A DNA stretch of 64,000 bases from Polaribacter sp. ALD11 (GTDB taxonomy: Bacteria; Bacteroidota; Bacteroidia; Flavobacteriales; Flavobacteriaceae), in NCBI RefSeq assembly GCF_002831685.1, contig NZ_CP025119.1, forward strand, positions 345,001 through 409,000, given 5' to 3'. How positions within the stretch are numbered: the stretch's first letter is position 1; each line of letters starts with the position of its first letter. The translations under genes and the position numbers were made by a program. The notes beneath the pieces are model-generated. The model was not told the DNA's origin. It saw only the letters and a list, made by a program, of their open reading frames with translations, and did not search any database. Below, piece by piece: positions 28,177 to 43,611 of the stretch.

Positions 28177-28848
28177 ATGAAAAACTTTTGGTTCTTTGAT
28201 AATGTAAACTTATTCAATCTTCTTTGTCCACATAAGTTCAAAGAATATAAGGAATGTCACACTTTCGATTTGTATAAGAAAAGTGACTATATTTATTTTA
28301 CTGAAGACGTAGCTAATAAAATTTTTTTAATTGAAAAAGGAAAAGTGAAAATGGGTTATTATACAGAAGAAGGTGAGGAGGTCGTAAACGCTATTTTAAC
28401 TAAAGGTGAATTATTTGGTGAAAAAGCAATTTTAGGAGAAGAAAAAAGAGAAGAATTTGCACAATCTATAGATGCTACAACATCAATTTGTCCGATAGGA
28501 GTAGATACAATGCACGATTTAATGCGTGATAATAAAAATTTTAGCTTAAAGATTTATAAGTTTTTAGGTTTAAGGTTTAAAAAATTAGAAAGAAGACTAC
28601 AATTAATTTTATTTAAAGACACACGAACTCGTTTTTTAGAGTTTACAAAAGAATTATGCGAAGAGTATAGTTACGAATGTGAGAAGACTGGAGATAAAGT
28701 AATAGTTCATCCTTATACCCAAAAAGATATTGCTTCTTTAATTGGTACTTCTAGATCTAATTTAAATGTTTTAATGAACGAACTAAAACAGGAGAATATC
28801 ATCAATTTTAATAGAAAAGAATTAAGAATTTTAGAAAAAAGTGCATAA
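28177..28848 (+). CDS. Crp/Fnr family transcriptional regulator
   Basis: The 223-residue protein has an N-terminal cyclic-nucleotide-binding-like beta-roll (IFLIEKGKVKMGYYTEEGEE, then LTKGELFGEKAIL), a dimer helix (YKFLGLRFKKLERRLQLILF) and a C-terminal winged HTH (PYTQKDIASLIGTSRSNLNV). Cys residues are C17, C28, C104 and two near 170, not spaced like an FNR cluster, so the signal is unknown. The lipoprotein gene behind it has an inverted repeat at an activator position and may be its target. Confidence 0.88.
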   Translation: MKNFWFFDNVNLFNLLCPHKFKEYKECHTFDLYKKSDYIYFTEDVANKIFLIEKGKVKMGYYTEEGEEVVNAILTKGELFGEKAILGEEKREEFAQSIDATTSICPIGVDTMHDLMRDNKNFSLKIYKFLGLRFKKLERRLQLILFKDTRTRFLEFTKELCEEYSYECEKTGDKVIVHPYTQKDIASLIGTSRSNLNVLMNELKQENIINFNRKELRILEKSA

Positions 28849-34852: not shown

Positions 34853-36041
34853 CCTTACAATTCTGAACAAATATCCCTAAAAGTGCTATAGGAATAAGTG
34901 CACTAACCAGTACTAAAAATTGGTGATAATTATCGAATATAGATAGTTGTTGCCAATTACAAAAACCTTTATAAAAAATTAAAAATTCAGAAATAACAAA
35001 GCCTGTAAGGTAGATTATTAACCAAATTTTTGAAAGTCTTAATATTTTAAAATAATATAAGAAAACGAATAAACTTAAACTTACCAATCCTAAAAAAGTA
35101 AGGTGTAAATAACCAATTACAAAATCTATAATTTGCGATATTAATTCAGCAAAATAAGGAATTGAACTAACAAACTGTAACACTATTTTAAAGATAAAAA
35201 GTAGGTAAATAAGTTTTAGTAACTGAAATAAAAAAGGGCTTAGTTTCTTAGATAATTCAGGTTTGATATTATTAATAATTTGATAAAATTTAAAAAGGGC
35301 TATAATCTGTAGAAAACCTCCAATAAAAGCAATAATATAAATATACACTGGTGGTTTTATCCATAAAAACGATAAAAATAAGGTGCATATACAACCTAAA
35401 AGCATCAATATGTAAAGTTTTTTGATACTGTTTTTCTGAACCTTTATTTTCTTTTTTTCCAAAAAGAAGAAAAACAACCCTAATAAACAGAAAATAAACC
35501 AACCATTGTATTGGAAATGTAAATAGAAATAAATAGCATTTTTATACCAATGAGAAGAATTTCCAAGGGTGTTCATAATAATTCCTATAACCCAAGGTCC
35601 GATGCTAGAAAAGACCATAAATAGGAGCGAAGTATTTATAAATTTGTAAGTATAACTTGCCTTATTACAGGCATTATTTTTTCTAAAAAGGGCATAAAAC
35701 CAATAGGTACAAATTAGAAATAAGGTAGAAAATATTATTGAAAACAATGCATAGCCAGTTATAGGAAAACTGACCAACATTCCTATAATTGTTATTTGAG
35801 TACACCAAAAAACAACAGCATATCTTTTAACAGCTTCTTTTTTTATAAATAAGTAAAATATTAATGAAGTTAAAGCAACATATACCCAGCCCAATAAAGC
35901 AATATGCGAATGTGTATGTACAATATATTTATAGTTAGCACTTACAGCTACAACAGGAAAAAGTCGCAATAAAACACCTAAACTAGCTGCTACTAGAAAA
36001 TAAAAAAGACTAATTAAAATGTGTTTTTTTATAATTATCAT
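34821..36041 (-). CDS. Polytopic membrane protein, haem-copper-oxidase-like, co-transcribed with the Rrf2 regulator
   Basis: The 406-residue protein has about twelve hydrophobic helices. Conserved-looking polar residues are within membranes: YIVHTHSHIALLGWVYVALT (about 39-58) and AIYFYLHFQYNGWFIFCLLG (about 170-189). Two His-rich helices and the HSHIALLGW pattern recall haem-binding helices of subunit I of haem-copper oxidases and NO reductases, but I see no complete set of ligands. It overlaps the Rrf2 gene by 4 bp (translational coupling) and faces nirK, so I infer a role in nitric oxide sensing, detoxification or electron transfer. Confidence 0.7.
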   Translation of the reverse strand: MIIIKKHILISLFYFLVAASLGVLLRLFPVVAVSANYKYIVHTHSHIALLGWVYVALTSLIFYLFIKKEAVKRYAVVFWCTQITIIGMLVSFPITGYALFSIIFSTLFLICTYWFYALFRKNNACNKASYTYKFINTSLLFMVFSSIGPWVIGIIMNTLGNSSHWYKNAIYFYLHFQYNGWFIFCLLGLFFFFLEKKKIKVQKNSIKKLYILMLLGCICTLFLSFLWIKPPVYIYIIAFIGGFLQIIALFKFYQIINNIKPELSKKLSPFLFQLLKLIYLLFIFKIVLQFVSSIPYFAELISQIIDFVIGYLHLTFLGLVSLSLFVFLYYFKILRLSKIWLIIYLTGFVISEFLIFYKGFCNWQQLSIFDNYHQFLVLVSALIPIALLGIFVQNCKAIFSTQRVLQ

Positions 36042-36475
36042 TTTATAATTTCATTCAAGTTGTTATTTATTTTATATTCATTTGCCATTTCTAAAATTGT
36101 TTTTGTTTTAAGTTTTTTTATCAATTCATTTTTAAAAGGCATATATAAATGGTGAACTACACAAGGGCTTTCATCGCTACACTGAAGTTGGCCTAAATAA
36201 CATTGGTTAAATTTTTCGATATCGTCAACGCAATCAATAATATCAAAAAGTGAATATTTTTCATTTTTTCTAGATAAATAAAACCCTCCATGAGGTCCTT
36301 TAATAGAAGATATTATCTCCTTTTTTGTTAGTTCTTGTAGCGTTTTTGCTAAAAAAGGAGCTGGTATTTTTAATTTTTCAGCAATCTGTTTAGCGCTTAT
36401 TTTTTTCTCTTTGGTCGCTGTATTTGTAAGGTATAAAACTGCAATTATTGCATATTTACTTGCTTTTGACAACAT
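36038..36475 (-). CDS. Rrf2 family regulator, NsrR/IscR-like
   Basis: The 145-residue protein from the ATG at 36475 (MLSKASKYAIIAVLYLTN) has a winged HTH (KISAKQIAEKLKIPAPFLAK) and GPHGGFYLSR. The Fe-S cluster Cys residues are C92, C99 and C105 (C-X6-C-X5-C), close to those of IscR and NsrR. Upstream extension to 36532 would run through the promoter and operator and is rejected. With a nitrite reductase divergent and two NsrR-like palindromes between them, I infer an NO-sensing repressor. It is coupled to the downstream membrane-protein gene. Confidence 0.85.
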   Translation of the reverse strand: MLSKASKYAIIAVLYLTNTATKEKKISAKQIAEKLKIPAPFLAKTLQELTKKEIISSIKGPHGGFYLSRKNEKYSLFDIIDCVDDIEKFNQCYLGQLQCSDESPCVVHHLYMPFKNELIKKLKTKTILEMANEYKINNNLNEIIK

Positions 36476-36489
36476 GGTTTTGTTTTCTA

Positions 36490-36497
36490 CAAAAATA
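36490..36497 (-). promoter_or_regulatory. -7 promoter element of the rrf2 operon
   Basis: On the minus strand this reads TATTTTTG, matching TAnnTTTG. It lies 14 bp before the ATG at 36475. Confidence 0.6.
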
Positions 36498-36518
36498 AAA
36501 AGATAAAAACATCTTTTT
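36497..36518. promoter_or_regulatory. NsrR-like operator O1 (rrf2 side)
   Basis: AAAAAGAT-N6-ATCTTTTT is an inverted repeat abutting the rrf2 -7 element, where a repressor would block the promoter. It resembles NsrR half sites (AAGATGYATTT). Confidence 0.6.
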
Positions 36519-36532
36519 ATGATAATTGTCAT
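36519..36532. promoter_or_regulatory. FNR/HcpR-type site shared by both divergent promoters
   Basis: ATGATAATTGTCAT fits the FNR/HcpR/NNR pattern xTGAy-N4-rTCAx. Its centre (36525.5) is 33 bp from the centre of the nirK -7 element and 32 bp from that of rrf2, so each promoter has it near -40, the class II activator position. The same 14-mer with one change is found at 41685-41698 upstream of the orphan 598-residue gene. Confidence 0.7.
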
Positions 36533-36554: not shown

Positions 36555-36562
36555 TAAATTTG
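36555..36562 (+). promoter_or_regulatory. -7 promoter element of nirK
   Basis: TAAATTTG matches TAnnTTTG and predicts a start near 36566, at the left edge of operator O2. Confidence 0.6.
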
Positions 36563-36623: not shown

Positions 36624-38078
36624 ATGAAACTTTTAAAAACAGTGTGTTTATTAACTATTACAAGCTTGCTGCTAACAAGTTGTAAAAGTGAAGAGAAGAA
36701 AGAAATAGCTATGGTAGATACTGCAAACATCTATATAAAAGGAACGATAGATGCAGAATTAACTTCGCCACCCTTTGTGCCAGCGCCAGTTGGAGATAGA
36801 ACTGCAAAAAAGCTGTTAGTAAACATGGAAATTCTTGAAAAGGAAGGTGAAATGACTGATGGTGTAAAATATGTTTATTGGACTTTTGGAGGTTCTGTTC
36901 CAGGGAGCTTTATAAGAACAAGAGTAGGAGATGAAGTAGAATTTACACTATCGAATCATCCAGATAATAAATTACCTCATAATATAGACATGCATGCGGT
37001 AACTGGTCCTGGAGGTGGAGCGACTTCTTCTTTTGTTGCACCAGGTCATAAAAAAACTTTTTCTTTTAAAACATTAAACCCTGGTTTATATGTGTATCAC
37101 TGTGCTACTGCACCAGTAGGAATGCATATTGCTAACGGAATGTATGGTTTAATTTTAGTAGAACCAGAAGGAGGTTTACCTAAAGTAGATAAAGAGTATT
37201 ACATTATGCAAGGAGATTTCTACACTAAAGGAGAAAATGGAGAAAGAGGATTACAACCTTTTGATATGACAAAAGCAATAAAAGAAGAAGCAGATTACGT
37301 GGTGTTTAATGGTAAAGTTGGTGCTTTAACAGGTGACGATGCAATTACTGCAAATGTTGGTGAAACGGTTCGTTTATATGTTGGTAATGGTGGCCCAAAT
37401 TTAACTTCATCTTTTCATGTTATTGGAGAAATTTTTGATAAAGTACACATTGAAGGTGGAGATTTAATTAATACAAATGTACAAACAACATCAATTCCTT
37501 CTGGTGGCGCAGCAATTGTAGAATTTAAAGTAGAAGTTCCTGGAACATTTATTATTGTAGATCACGCTATTTTTAGAGCTTTTAATAAAGGTGCATTAGG
37601 AATGTTAAAAGTAACAGGAGAAGAAAACAAAAAACTATACTCGGGTGTAAAGCAAGAAGGAATCTATCTTCCAGAAGGAGGTACAATTCAAACAATGCCA
37701 GATAATACAAAGAAAGAAGTTGCTGTACAGTCTTCAAATAAGACATTGGCTCAGAAACTTAAAGATGGTAAAAATGTGTATATGAAAACTTGTTTTGCTT
37801 GTCACCAAGCAGAAGGACAAGGAATACCGAATGCATTTCCTCCTTTAGCAAAGTCAGATTACTTAAATGCAGATGTAAAAAGAGCTATTGGTATTGTTTT
37901 AAATGGTAAAACAGGTGAAATTACTGTAAATGGTAAAAAATATAATAGTGTAATGACCAAGCAAACGTTAACAGATGAAGAGGTGGCAGATGTTATGACC
38001 TATGTATATAATTCTTGGGGAAATAATAAAACAAACGTTAGCATAAATACAGTAAAAGAAGTTAAAAACAGTCACTAA
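36624..38078 (+). CDS. nirK: Copper nitrite reductase with C-terminal cytochrome c domain
   Basis: NirK reduces nitrite to nitric oxide in the periplasm. The 484-residue lipoprotein (signal ending LLLTSC, Cys20) has two cupredoxin domains. Type 1 copper ligands are H119, C160, H168 and M173 ([30 protein letters not shown]); type 2 ligands are H124, H159 and H314 ([11 protein letters not shown]); catalytic D122 and H265 are present. A linker leads to a cytochrome c domain with haem motif CFACH (390-394). The fused cytochrome is likely the electron donor. NO produced would feed back on the adjacent regulators. Confidence 0.95.
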
Positions 38079-38096: not shown

Positions 38097-38870
38097 ATGA
38101 AAACTATTTTAAGATTGACAATTTGCATACTTTTTCTAAATTCAATGATCACAAATTGTCAATCTAAAATGGTACCAATTAAAGGAGGAAACTATATTCC
38201 ACTTTACGGTAGAGATTCTATGAAAGTTTCTATAAATGATTTTTTGATGGATGTTTATCCTGTTACCAACAAGGAATATTTAGCTTTTATTAAAAAACAC
38301 CCTAAATGGCAAAGAAGTAAAACTATTAAATTATTTGTTGATGGAAGTTATTTAAGAGAATGGAAAACAGATACAACTCTAAATGTAAATCAAAAATTAA
38401 AATCACCAGTTACTCAAGTTTCTTGGTTTGCTGCTAAAAGTTATTGTGAAAGCCAAGGAAAAAGATTGCCAACAGTAGATGAATGGGAATATGTAGCTAT
38501 GGCAAACAAAACAATGCCAGATGCAAGAAAAGAAGAAGCCTACAATCAGTTTATTTTGGGATGGTACGAAAAGCCAAAAACATTTAATCAAACCATTGGT
38601 TCTACATTTAGAAATTATTGGAGAGTTTATGATTTACATGGTTTGGTATGGGAATGGACTTCAGATTTTAATTCTGTTTTAATTTCTGGTGAATCTAGAA
38701 AAGATGTAGATAAAGATAGTAATTTATTCTGCGGAAGCGCAGCCATAAATGCAACAGATTTAATGAATTATGCAGCATTTATGCGATATGCAATAAGAGG
38801 AAGTTTAAAAGCAAGATATTCCATGAGAAACCTTGGTTTTAGATGTGTAAAAGATGATAAAACAAATTAA
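38097..38870 (+). CDS. nirV: NirV-like SUMF1/FGE-fold protein
   Basis: This 257-residue secreted protein (hydrophobic N-terminus ending near NCQS) has the formylglycine-generating-enzyme fold: MVPIKGGNYIPLYGRDSM, VTQVSWFAAKSYCESQGKRL, WEYVAMANK, LHGLVWEWTSDFN, and YSMRNLGFRCVKDD at the end. In FGE two close Cys residues do the chemistry; here the equivalent loop has one (FCGSAA), so formylglycine formation is unlikely. Genes of this kind, nirV, follow nirK in many denitrifiers and their role is unsettled. The gap from nirK is 18 bp. Confidence 0.85.
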   Translation: MKTILRLTICILFLNSMITNCQSKMVPIKGGNYIPLYGRDSMKVSINDFLMDVYPVTNKEYLAFIKKHPKWQRSKTIKLFVDGSYLREWKTDTTLNVNQKLKSPVTQVSWFAAKSYCESQGKRLPTVDEWEYVAMANKTMPDARKEEAYNQFILGWYEKPKTFNQTIGSTFRNYWRVYDLHGLVWEWTSDFNSVLISGESRKDVDKDSNLFCGSAAINATDLMNYAAFMRYAIRGSLKARYSMRNLGFRCVKDDKTN

Positions 38871-39586: not shown

Positions 39587-40309
39587 ATGAATATAACAGA
39601 AAATAACACTGTAGCAGAAGTTGTTACTAGCAATATAAAAACAGCAGATATATTTAAAAAACATGGAATTGATTTCTGTTGTGGCGGAGGAATTTCGATT
39701 AAAAAAGCATGTGAAAAAAATAATATTTCTTATGAAACTTTGGCAAAAGAACTATCAAATATGAACAATCCAGTTTCTAAGGCTTATAATTATGATAGCT
39801 GGAAACTAGATTTTTTAGCAGATCATATAGAGAATATTCATCATAGTTATGTTGCAGAAAGTACCCCCTTAGTATTACAATATGCAGAACGAGTAGCCAA
39901 AGTTCATGGGCATCATTATGCAGAAGTTATCAAAATTAATACCTTATTTAAAGCGGTTGCACAAGAGTTAGCTGCACACATGAAAAAAGAAGAGCTTATT
40001 TTATTTCCTTTTATTAAGCAATTAGTAAAAGCAGACAAAGCAGGTATAAAAGTAAAGACTCCACATTTTGGTACGGTAAACAATCCAATAAAAATGATGG
40101 AAGAAGAGCATGAAAACGCAGGCGATATTCTTAAGGAAATAAAAGAACTTTCTAACAATTATACACCACCAGAAGGAGCTTGTAATACGTTTAAAGCTTT
40201 GTATGCAAAACTAGAGGAGTTCGAGCAAGATTTACATCAACATATTCACTTAGAAAATAATATTTTGTTTCCTAAAGCAATTCTTTTAGAGCAAAAAAAC
40301 AATCAATAA
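39587..40309 (+). CDS. ric: RIC/ScdA di-iron repair protein
   Basis: RIC (YtfE/ScdA) repairs iron-sulphur clusters damaged by NO or oxidants. The 240-residue cytosolic protein has the N-terminal DUF542 domain with HGIDFCCGGGISIKKACEKN and a hemerythrin-like four-helix domain with di-iron ligands in ADHIENIHHSYV, KVHGHHYAEV, AAHMKKEELILFPFI, MMEEEHENAGDIL and HQHIHLENNILFPKA. It starts 5 bp after the SCO gene, in the nirK series, as expected for defence against the NO made by NirK. Confidence 0.93.
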   Translation: MNITENNTVAEVVTSNIKTADIFKKHGIDFCCGGGISIKKACEKNNISYETLAKELSNMNNPVSKAYNYDSWKLDFLADHIENIHHSYVAESTPLVLQYAERVAKVHGHHYAEVIKINTLFKAVAQELAAHMKKEELILFPFIKQLVKADKAGIKVKTPHFGTVNNPIKMMEEEHENAGDILKEIKELSNNYTPPEGACNTFKALYAKLEEFEQDLHQHIHLENNILFPKAILLEQKNNQ

Positions 40310-41607: not shown

Positions 41608-41624
41608 TTTTTTTTTAGTTAACG

Positions 41625-41667
41625 AAAAGTCTCTTTTAAGATGTAAATCAGGAAAAGAGACTTTTTT
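41625..41667 (+). terminator. Terminator closing the nirK series
   Basis: A 13-bp stem AAAAGTCTCTTTT/AAAAGAGACTTTT has a 15-base loop and a T run. Confidence 0.85.
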
Positions 41668-41684: not shown

Positions 41685-41698
41685 ATGATAATAGTCAT
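41685..41698. promoter_or_regulatory. FNR/HcpR-type site upstream of the 598-residue orphan
   Basis: ATGATAATAGTCAT differs in one base from the site in the nirK/rrf2 region. A near-consensus -7 element (TACATTGT, 41721-41728) follows with its centre 33 bp away, as in nirK. Confidence 0.65.
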
Positions 41699-41755
41699 GT
41701 TTTACGAAAGTAAATAAGAATACATTGTAGGCTTATTTAAAATATAAATTAAAAG

Positions 41756-43552
41756 ATGAAAAGAACACACTCGTTTCATATCCCTGTAATGGGAATAGGG
41801 TTTACAATAGATTCACCTTTAAAAGTAGCTCAATATGGCATCGATTCCGTAATATCTTTGGTAGATGATATCTTATTAGAAAAGCTACGAAAATTGTATA
41901 GTGAGAAATTTGAAATTCCTTATAAAGAAATATCCGATAAAGTGGATGATTTTAGAGCAAAGAGAATTACTTCTTATTTAAATTTAATGCATGAACAAAC
42001 TGAAGAAAAACTACATCAATTAAAAAATATATCTTCTATAAAAAGCAAGGCATTAAAAGACTATATTTTTATGTTACCTGAATATTCTTCGTTAAAAAAA
42101 GAATATGAGAAACTCACAGAAAATGGAATTCCTTTTTCTAGGTTAAAAGATTGGGTTTGTAAAAATTTAACTATGGGTAGTATAGATGTTAATATTATGA
42201 CCAAGGTAGATAAAGGTAATTACCTAAATAAAGAACTATTACCTATTGAATATAATGACGCTCATGCTGCTTTAAGAGGGTATTCTAATAGTAAATTGTC
42301 TTCTTCATTAGTACTTTCTGCAGGAATGAACCCAAGATTGTATTCATACATCAGTAATTTTGATGATTTTTTTCCTGATGAAAATGGAAACATTAAAAAG
42401 AAAATAATTCTAAAAGTAAGTGATTATAGATCTGCTTTTATTCAAGGAAAATTTCTAGCTAAAAAGGGGTTATGGGTTTCAGAATATAGAATAGAATCTG
42501 GCTTAAATTGTGGTGGACATGCATTTGCAACCGATGGTTTTTTATTAGGCCCAGTATTAGAGGAATTTAAAGTAAATAAAGAATCTTTAAAAATTCAAAC
42601 CAAAACATTATTGATTGAAGCTCTTAAGGAATCGAATAGAGTTTTACCTACTAAAGAGTTAGCTTTAAAAATTACAACTCAAGGTGGCGTTGGTACAGAT
42701 GAAGAGCATTCTTTTCTAATGGAAGAATATCAATTAGATTCTGTAGGCTGGGGAAGTCCATTTTTATTAGTACCAGAAGCAACTAGCGTTGATGAAAAAA
42801 CGATGGAAAAGTTAGCAAAAGCAAAAGAAGAAGATTTGTATTTAAGCAATACTTCGCCTTTAGGTGTTCCGTTTAACACACTTAAAGGAAATACAAAAGA
42901 TTTAGAAAAGCAACAGTTTATTAATAAAAACAGACCAGGAAGTGCTTGTCCGAATAAATTTATCGCTTTAAATAAGGAATTTAAAGAATCAGGTTTGTGT
43001 ACAGCTTCTAGAGAATATCAATATTTAAAATTAAAAGAGTTAGATTCTTTAGATATTTCAGCAGAAGACAAAGAGCAAAAGCATAATAAAATTATAGAAA
43101 AATCTTGTATTTGTGTAGGGCTAAGTACTGCTACATTAATTCTAAATGATATGAGTACAAAGAAAATTGGAGCCGGTGTTTCTGTTTGTCCAGGTCCAAA
43201 TATGGCTTATTTTGAGAATATTATGACTTTACGTGACATTACAGATCATATTTATGGCAGAAAAAATATGATGACTCGCACAGACAGACCAAACATATTT
43301 ATTAAAGAGTTATCTCTTTATATTACACACTTACAAGAAAAAGTAGCTGATGTAAAGACCAGTATTGATAAAAAACAATTACGATATTTATTGAAATTTA
43401 AAAATAATTTAGAAGAAGGTATTCGTTATTATGATAAATTATTTAAGGCTCAGAAAGAGTCTTTTGTAAATCAAAAAGAAGCGCTTTTAAATGCACTTCA
43501 GATAGAACAGAAGAAGTTAATTTTAGTAGGTGTAGCAATAGAAAATATTTAA
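41756..43552 (+). CDS. Orphan flavin-TIM-barrel-like protein with Cys-rich C-terminal domain
   Basis: I cannot name this 598-residue cytosolic protein. Residues 8-40 (PVMGIGFTIDSPLKVAQYGI), a loop LNCGGHAFATDGFLLGPVLE (250-269) and ITTQGGVGTDEEHSF with VGWGSPFLLVPEATSVDEKT resemble the FMN-binding barrel of nitronate monooxygenases. Residues 398-478 hold C398, C415, C451, C453 and C478 (GSACP, GLCTAS, SCICVG, VCPGPN), which look like Fe-S ligands. The end is a charged coiled coil. An FNR/HcpR-type site like that of nirK precedes it, so I infer a redox enzyme or electron carrier used under NO or low oxygen. Confidence 0.6.
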   Translation: MKRTHSFHIPVMGIGFTIDSPLKVAQYGIDSVISLVDDILLEKLRKLYSEKFEIPYKEISDKVDDFRAKRITSYLNLMHEQTEEKLHQLKNISSIKSKALKDYIFMLPEYSSLKKEYEKLTENGIPFSRLKDWVCKNLTMGSIDVNIMTKVDKGNYLNKELLPIEYNDAHAALRGYSNSKLSSSLVLSAGMNPRLYSYISNFDDFFPDENGNIKKKIILKVSDYRSAFIQGKFLAKKGLWVSEYRIESGLNCGGHAFATDGFLLGPVLEEFKVNKESLKIQTKTLLIEALKESNRVLPTKELALKITTQGGVGTDEEHSFLMEEYQLDSVGWGSPFLLVPEATSVDEKTMEKLAKAKEEDLYLSNTSPLGVPFNTLKGNTKDLEKQQFINKNRPGSACPNKFIALNKEFKESGLCTASREYQYLKLKELDSLDISAEDKEQKHNKIIEKSCICVGLSTATLILNDMSTKKIGAGVSVCPGPNMAYFENIMTLRDITDHIYGRKNMMTRTDRPNIFIKELSLYITHLQEKVADVKTSIDKKQLRYLLKFKNNLEEGIRYYDKLFKAQKESFVNQKEALLNALQIEQKKLILVGVAIENI

Positions 43553-43570
43553 TACAGTATCTATAGAATA

Positions 43571-43611
43571 CAAAAAAAGCATCTTTTAAAAATTAAAAGA
43601 TGCTTTTTTTG
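43571..43611. terminator. Bidirectional terminator between the orphan gene and purA
   Basis: An 18-bp perfect stem (43571-43588 with 43594-43611) is rich in A and T at its foot on both sides and serves both convergent genes. Confidence 0.88.

Follow-up and report, generated by a model that had tools for sequence, protein, structure and literature searches.

A Bacteroidota-centred protein family, probably a remote relative of nitronate monooxygenase and FabX, with a putative FNR-type operator in Polaribacter sp. ALD11

Flavoproteins of the nitronate monooxygenase (NMO) family oxidise nitronates, and NGO1024 of Neisseria gonorrhoeae, which we take to be UfaA, is reportedly induced by FNR. NGO1024 is described as an NMO-like protein that is indispensable when unsaturated fatty acids are made anaerobically, and as about 36% identical to a FabX-type protein (PMC11300592). 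The structure of FabX of Helicobacter pylori (PDB 7E1Q) has been solved and displays a [4Fe-4S] cluster on the NMO fold; the enzyme dehydrogenates and isomerises acyl-ACP, leading to unsaturated fatty acids, requires O2 in vitro and belongs to an organism without FabA (PMC8626469). An anaerobic version would therefore need another acceptor. A Flavobacteriales CRP/FNR homologue was grouped with MalR in a further report (PMC8510549). No description of the family treated here, or of a Bacteroidota FNR/nirK/ric regulon, was found in the open-licence literature.

Here, a stretch of 64,000 nucleotides from Polaribacter sp. ALD11 (contig NZ_CP025119.1, positions 345,001 to 409,000), referred to as the window, was analysed around a gene that we call the orphan gene. 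The 598-residue reading frame named by the original prediction was confirmed, and so was the terminator said to separate it from the nirK series (Table 1). Neither of the two hairpins flanking the gene was found by a simple terminator pattern scan, the single match of which lay on the minus strand within the orphan reading frame; the upstream hairpin was missed because its loop exceeds the scanner limit of 8. The Rrf2 frame as called starts within the nirK/rrf2 operator, and translation more probably begins at an internal ATG 57 bp further on (near 36475), in which case the operator would be intergenic.

Table 1. Features of the window, numbered from its first nucleotide.
Feature	Positions	Strand	Remarks
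Operator of the orphan gene, ATGATAATAGTCAT	41685..41698	+	putative FNR-type palindrome
Sister operator at nirK/rrf2, ATGATAATTGTCAT	36519..36532	+
-7 element of the orphan gene, TACATTGT	41721..41728	+	weak (4/6), 36 bp from operator start
-7 element of nirK, TAAATTTG	36555..36562	+	perfect (6/6), 36 bp from operator start
Orphan reading frame	41756..43552	+	598 aa, ATG start
Regions of the orphan protein			predicted NMO-like barrel ~120-380; Cys-rich ~390-500; then charged tail
Codons of Cys252-Gly-Gly-His255	42509..42520	+	invariant; GGH aligned with FabX GGH (His182)
Stretch with Cys398, 415, 451, 453 and 478	42947..43189	+	invariant; candidate Fe-S ligands
Terminator hairpin between porin and orphan gene	41624..41666	+	folding; -16.7 kcal/mol, z -4.5; cuts orphan gene from nirK series
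Second terminator hairpin, 3' of orphan gene	43571..43611	+	folding; -20.3 kcal/mol, z -7.9
nirK with C-terminal cytochrome c domain	36624..38078	+	family models (TIGR02376)
Rrf2-family regulator	36038..36532	-	family models
ric, iron-sulfur cluster repair protein	39587..40309	+	family model (TIGR03652)
FGE-sulfatase-domain protein	38097..38870	+	nirK series, between nirK and SCO1/SenC protein
Membrane-type protein, 406 aa	34821..36041	-	adjoins rrf2; no family above cut-off, weak COX1 match (E 0.051)
Second Crp/Fnr-like regulator	28243..28836	+	E 7.7e-9 to the regulator next to the orphan gene in Flavobacterium sp. GT3R68

The orphan protein had been described as fitting no characterised family, and the searches agreed: Pfam gave no family at E up to 1, NCBIfam a single stray match (E 0.059) below the cut-off and PDB no matching chain. 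A profile built from 29 family members detected only weak unrelated chains in PDB (best E 0.044), and the 29 members scanned singly against Pfam at E up to 10 revealed no consistent family; PF03060 was absent among the matches listed, which covered 25 of 49 families. The homologues nevertheless numbered at least 8000, all significant, and the best 120 of these were named hypothetical or uncharacterized proteins, none with a stated function. A family of this size, found in about one third of the sampled Bacteroidota genomes (112/296, one of them, G290, with a contig-end fragment only), is thus without a Pfam or NCBIfam model. The gene was also present in metagenome-assembled genomes assigned to other phyla, some of which may be mis-binned, and a plasmid search gave no match. 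Two full-length copies were detected in one genome (G152), and in another (G095) an intact copy was accompanied by a second, fragmented one with stop codons (G095:C1:4371170-4372862).

An alignment of 78 homologues, made from 80 loci minus a fragment (L062) and a near copy of another locus (L055, of L054) and including nine Arenibacter loci, contained 54 invariant residues. Among them were G13, G28, N251-C252-G-G-H255, G310-G311, G331-W332, F336 and S367-P368. The five C-terminal Cys residues of the original prediction (398, 415, 451, 453 and 478) were all found and were invariant in 78/78 homologues and in 121/121 sequences when the window protein was compared with its best 120 listed relatives. 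The same held for His255 of the GGH motif and for a sixth residue, Cys252, which had not been listed before.

The NMO-type barrel motifs that had been claimed were supported at the profile level. With hhalign, the 78-sequence family profile matched a joint NMO-superfamily profile of 47 sequences (FabX, the Chlorobiota Cys-rich NMO, FabK-like proteins and class I NMO) with 92% probability and a score of 60.0 over residues 127-463, compared with at most 30.0 in 10 column shuffles and 18.2 for the reversed profile. The GGH of the family falls on the GGH of the superfamily in this alignment. The barrel block (120-380) alone still reached 90.6% against the joint profile, and no independent profile signal came from residues 1-60 (N-terminal) or 380-510 (Cys-rich) taken alone. 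An earlier NMO set without FabX gave 70% and a score of 46 (maximum of 40 shuffles, 26). As single templates, FabX (0.5%, score 20.5 against 21.6 in shuffles) and class I NMO (20.5 against 29.4) were rejected, as was the FabK-like set, which exceeded its shuffles (31.9 against 22.9) but was out of register; the Chlorobiota type aligned in register with a probability of only 3-5%. We accept from these profiles that the predicted barrel is a remote homologue of the NMO superfamily as a whole, nearest to no single subfamily, and regard the Cys-rich part as analogous to that of its NMO relatives by order and position only.

Within this superfamily, the orphan gene would be a member of a large, undescribed and Bacteroidota-centred branch, with an FMN barrel in which His255 and Cys252 are placed in the active site and a following five-Cys domain that probably binds a redox Fe-S cluster. 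The divergence of the family below Pfam detection would also agree with a protein that binds zinc or a cluster, is built on a scaffold derived from NMO and has lost its FMN, and so would the invariant Cys252 just before GGH, a position held by Ser in FabX and by Ala in the Chlorobiota type. Such a non-flavoenzyme is quite improbable in our view, as invariance extends to the His of GGH, the GG pair within QGGVG and the G331-W332/F336 motif.

Upstream of the orphan gene, the 14-mer ATGATAATAGTCAT differs, as stated in the original prediction, by one base from ATGATAATTGTCAT at nirK/rrf2. The identical spacing of 36 bp from site start to -7 element also stood; the two elements are, however, not of equal quality (Table 1). 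By itself the 14-mer was found 16 times in the window with up to 3 mismatches, compared with 15 expected, which is no excess over chance, and the genome-wide count of ATGAY-N4-RTCAT (28, with 25 in the backwards control) was discarded as evidence. The site rises above chance because it is conserved 5' of homologues at a fixed distance to the -7 element. Of 109 homologous genes, 29 had the core TGAY-N4-RTCA in their 220-bp upstream region, compared with a mean of 1.7 after shuffling (maximum 5 in 100 shuffles) and 2/109 in a stretch further upstream; the 109 genes represent the 112 genomes without the G290 fragment, G022 and G123, and half of the 30 sites among them (15) came from a single genus (g2). 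By a stricter score over 10 positions, a perfect site was seen in 8/109, and dinucleotide shuffling gave 0.2 (at most 2 in 60 rounds). The expected conservation of the 14-mer before homologues was accordingly seen in part, since the core was absent in the remaining 80/109, and none of 12 operons of ric and the orphan gene had a core site before ric.

A TAnnTTTG-like -7 element (at least 5/6) occurred exactly 36 bp from the site start at 27 of 39 core sites, and every other spacing between 20 and 60 occurred at most 4 times. Nine of the 39 sites were from eight loci added for an already seen site, and without these the proportion was 23/30. The centre of the operator lies about 29 bp before the -7 element, which would place it near -41.5 from the transcription start, where FNR binds at class II promoters of Escherichia coli. 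A TGA..TCA palindrome at a fixed promoter distance suggests the layout of an FNR-type regulon, and this layout in turn suggests that the protein is needed once oxygen becomes scarce.

In the Polaribacter genome itself, 22 of 28 sites were examined, including both window sites and with ten of the regions chosen by hand. Perfect -7 elements at +36 followed the sites of nirK, of ccoS-ccoNO encoding the cbb3 oxidase, of a UPF0176 rhodanese and of a 142-aa protein, and also both sites of the region L171. The 142-aa protein (L187:2552-3065) has no Pfam family and is presumed to be another member of the regulon. An fnr-like gene (L191) and ccoI, the latter named by eye, face one shared site where each strand carries a 5/6 element; the element on the fnr side stands just 7 nt ahead of the start codon. 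Sites without a good -7 at +36 preceded nadA and the large chain of a ribonucleotide reductase (class II by eye). Half of the examined sites (11/22) were inside reading frames, and a 1387-aa protein (L188:532-4695), Cas9-like by eye, has an operator match inside.

In Flavobacterium sp. GT3R68 (L051), a Crp/Fnr gene is located directly 5' of the orphan gene at about 130 bp. Its best match in the Polaribacter genome was L191 (55% identical), and the two Crp/Fnr homologues have Cys 4, 7, 29, 53, 59 and 106 in common. A single factor had been predicted to act on the nirK and orphan sites. The conserved site is in favour of this, but the factor would not be specific to nirK, as the site also precedes the cbb3 oxidase and other genes. 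Most simply, it would be an FNR-type oxygen/NO regulator, a reading that we infer because the layout precedes the cbb3 oxidase and because an FNR-like gene adjoins the orphan gene in Flavobacterium sp. GT3R68.

The gene neighbourhood pointed to nitrogen oxides. In 12 genomes of one family (f23), ric was directly 5' of the orphan gene on the same strand with gaps of 48-173 bp, and in at least one further, thirteenth genome it was divergent. Within 10 kb of the orphan gene, nosZ was found in about 12 genomes and nirK in about 5, numbers that are approximate and probably low; all these linkage counts were picked by eye from matches on the same contig with target length approximated, and those for ric are minimum values. 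In two Polaribacter loci (L032 and L033), a gene clustering with ric was the next gene upstream. Over 296 genomes, with G290 counted as lacking the gene, 79 had both the orphan gene and ric, 32 the orphan gene only, 44 ric only and 141 neither, corresponding to an odds ratio of 7.9 (p 1.2e-15) when relatedness is ignored. With the hcp-containing genomes left out, and relatedness again ignored, the odds ratio for ric was 4.2, that for nirK 2.6 (p 0.005) and that for nosZ 1.6 (p 0.11). In the window's own taxonomic family (30 genomes sampled), the odds ratio for ric was 8.75 (p 0.02) and all 11 nirK genomes had the orphan gene, while nosZ showed no association (0.77). A link to hcp was discarded, hcp being present in 67/296 genomes and only once together with the orphan gene; this hcp result has little weight, since it concerns mostly one family (f17). 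NrdD was found in 18/296 genomes, 8 of them with the orphan gene, which is suggestive only. The orphan gene is tied to anoxic nitrogen-oxide life and is not restricted to it, because 21 of the 111 genomes with a full-length gene had none of ric, nosZ and nirK.

These associations bear on the main alternative, a nitrosative-stress FMN/Fe-S oxidoreductase whose cluster is repaired by Ric and which would clear toxic products of denitrification, either NO-derived or nitro/nitronate compounds. It is in keeping with the position of the gene behind ric or near nosZ and nirK, with the co-occurrence with ric in the whole sample and in the window's family, and with the nitronate chemistry of the NMO relatives. 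A role confined to nitrosative stress is, however, disfavoured by the 21 genomes without any of the three markers; in 44 genomes ric occurs where the orphan gene is missing, nosZ is not associated with it in the window's family, and the layout common to the cbb3 oxidase points to oxygen control. We regard this alternative as rather unlikely, if well worth keeping in mind. The ric operons themselves would equally fit a cluster enzyme repaired by Ric after NO damage and a detoxifying enzyme.

When neighbours were clustered in 37 of the 80 loci (loci below 8 kb, L055, L062 and seven from Arenibacter being left out), no cluster apart from the orphan gene itself occurred in more than 6/37, and no fatty-acid genes were noticed beside it by eye in 22 of the 37 loci, in which gene names were read from the letters by eye. 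The clustering result counts against another replacement step of anaerobic metabolism (for example in quinone or tetrapyrrole synthesis or tRNA modification) or an electron-transfer flavoprotein without a link to lipids or NO, as no partner points to such a pathway. A step of this kind would account for the FNR-type layout common to oxygen-related genes, for the strong conservation and for the broad spread (112/296), and we hold it to be doubtful to about the same degree as the nitrosative role.

Taken as a whole, we lean slightly towards an FMN/Fe-S oxidoreductase of a separate branch of the NMO/FabK/FabX superfamily under FNR-type control at low oxygen. As oxygen falls, an FNR-type regulator on the 14-mer, about 29 bp 5' of the -7 element, would activate the orphan gene together with nirK and the cbb3 oxidase. 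Electrons would most likely be exchanged among FMN, the cluster and some organic substrate, and the enzyme would replace a step that is otherwise performed with oxygen. By analogy with FabX and UfaA, the substrate may be an acyl chain on a carrier that gains a double bond, which we put forward tentatively as a possibility below even chances. An acyl-chain role is reasonable because of the chemistry of FabX, because FabA was above the family cut-off in 0/11 tested genomes with the orphan gene (weak matches in 10 of the 11 are taken to be FabZ-like domains) and because a FabX-like NMO never occurred together with the orphan gene. This FabX-like NMO of the Chlorobiota type was found in 37/178 genomes, which span only two families, and the mutual exclusion may for that reason be a matter of phylogeny. 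The most far-reaching version, a phylum-wide family of FMN enzymes with a new five-Cys cluster type and an active-site Cys252 that makes unsaturated fatty acids independently of O2 in Bacteroidota, or carries out some anaerobic step just as basic, under an FNR-like switch, is a speculative proposal that we do not expect to hold in full. If the reading is true, the family marks a missing step of oxygen-free life in Bacteroidota, the site and its 36-bp rule offer a simple readout of an FNR-type regulon in bacteria with promoters unlike those of E. coli, and anoxic synthesis of unsaturated lipids by facultative Bacteroidota without FabA becomes a testable question.

Relative to the described systems, the orphan protein resembles FabX in its predicted NMO barrel, in the GGH motif that holds the catalytic His and in being Cys-rich towards the C-terminus. 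It is longer (598 aa compared with 363 aa), and FabX binds its [4Fe-4S] cluster through C300/C304/C308/C320 in a CX3CX3CX11C pattern, conserved in 18/18 aligned FabX relatives, whereas the orphan has C398-X16-C-X35-C-X-C-X24-C. FabX was not among the PDB matches of the orphan protein, either with the single sequence or with the 29-sequence profile, and identity with FabX was rejected on account of the absent CX3CX3CX11C, the different Cys spacing and the lack of a direct sequence match. For NGO1024, an identity of about 36% to a FabX-type protein is given (PMC11300592), whereas direct similarity to FabX was not detectable for the orphan. Compared with NMO/FabK proteins (PF03060), the barrel region and motifs are alike at the profile level, and the orphan has extra residues at about 45-125, a tail and the Cys domain. 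The Chlorobiota Cys-rich 'nitronate monooxygenases' (L097 and relatives, families f15 and f17) have six conserved C-terminal Cys residues and FabX as their best PDB match, and are possibly mis-named. At 419 aa, the L097 type is shorter than the orphan and within PF03060, which the orphan does not match, and it aligns in order with orphan residues 129-458. Its conserved Cys residues (C319, C332, C358, C360, C368 and C371) follow an order closer to that of the orphan than FabX's does, with C-X12-C and then C-X-C in the Chlorobiota type corresponding to C-X16-C and then C-X-C in the orphan.
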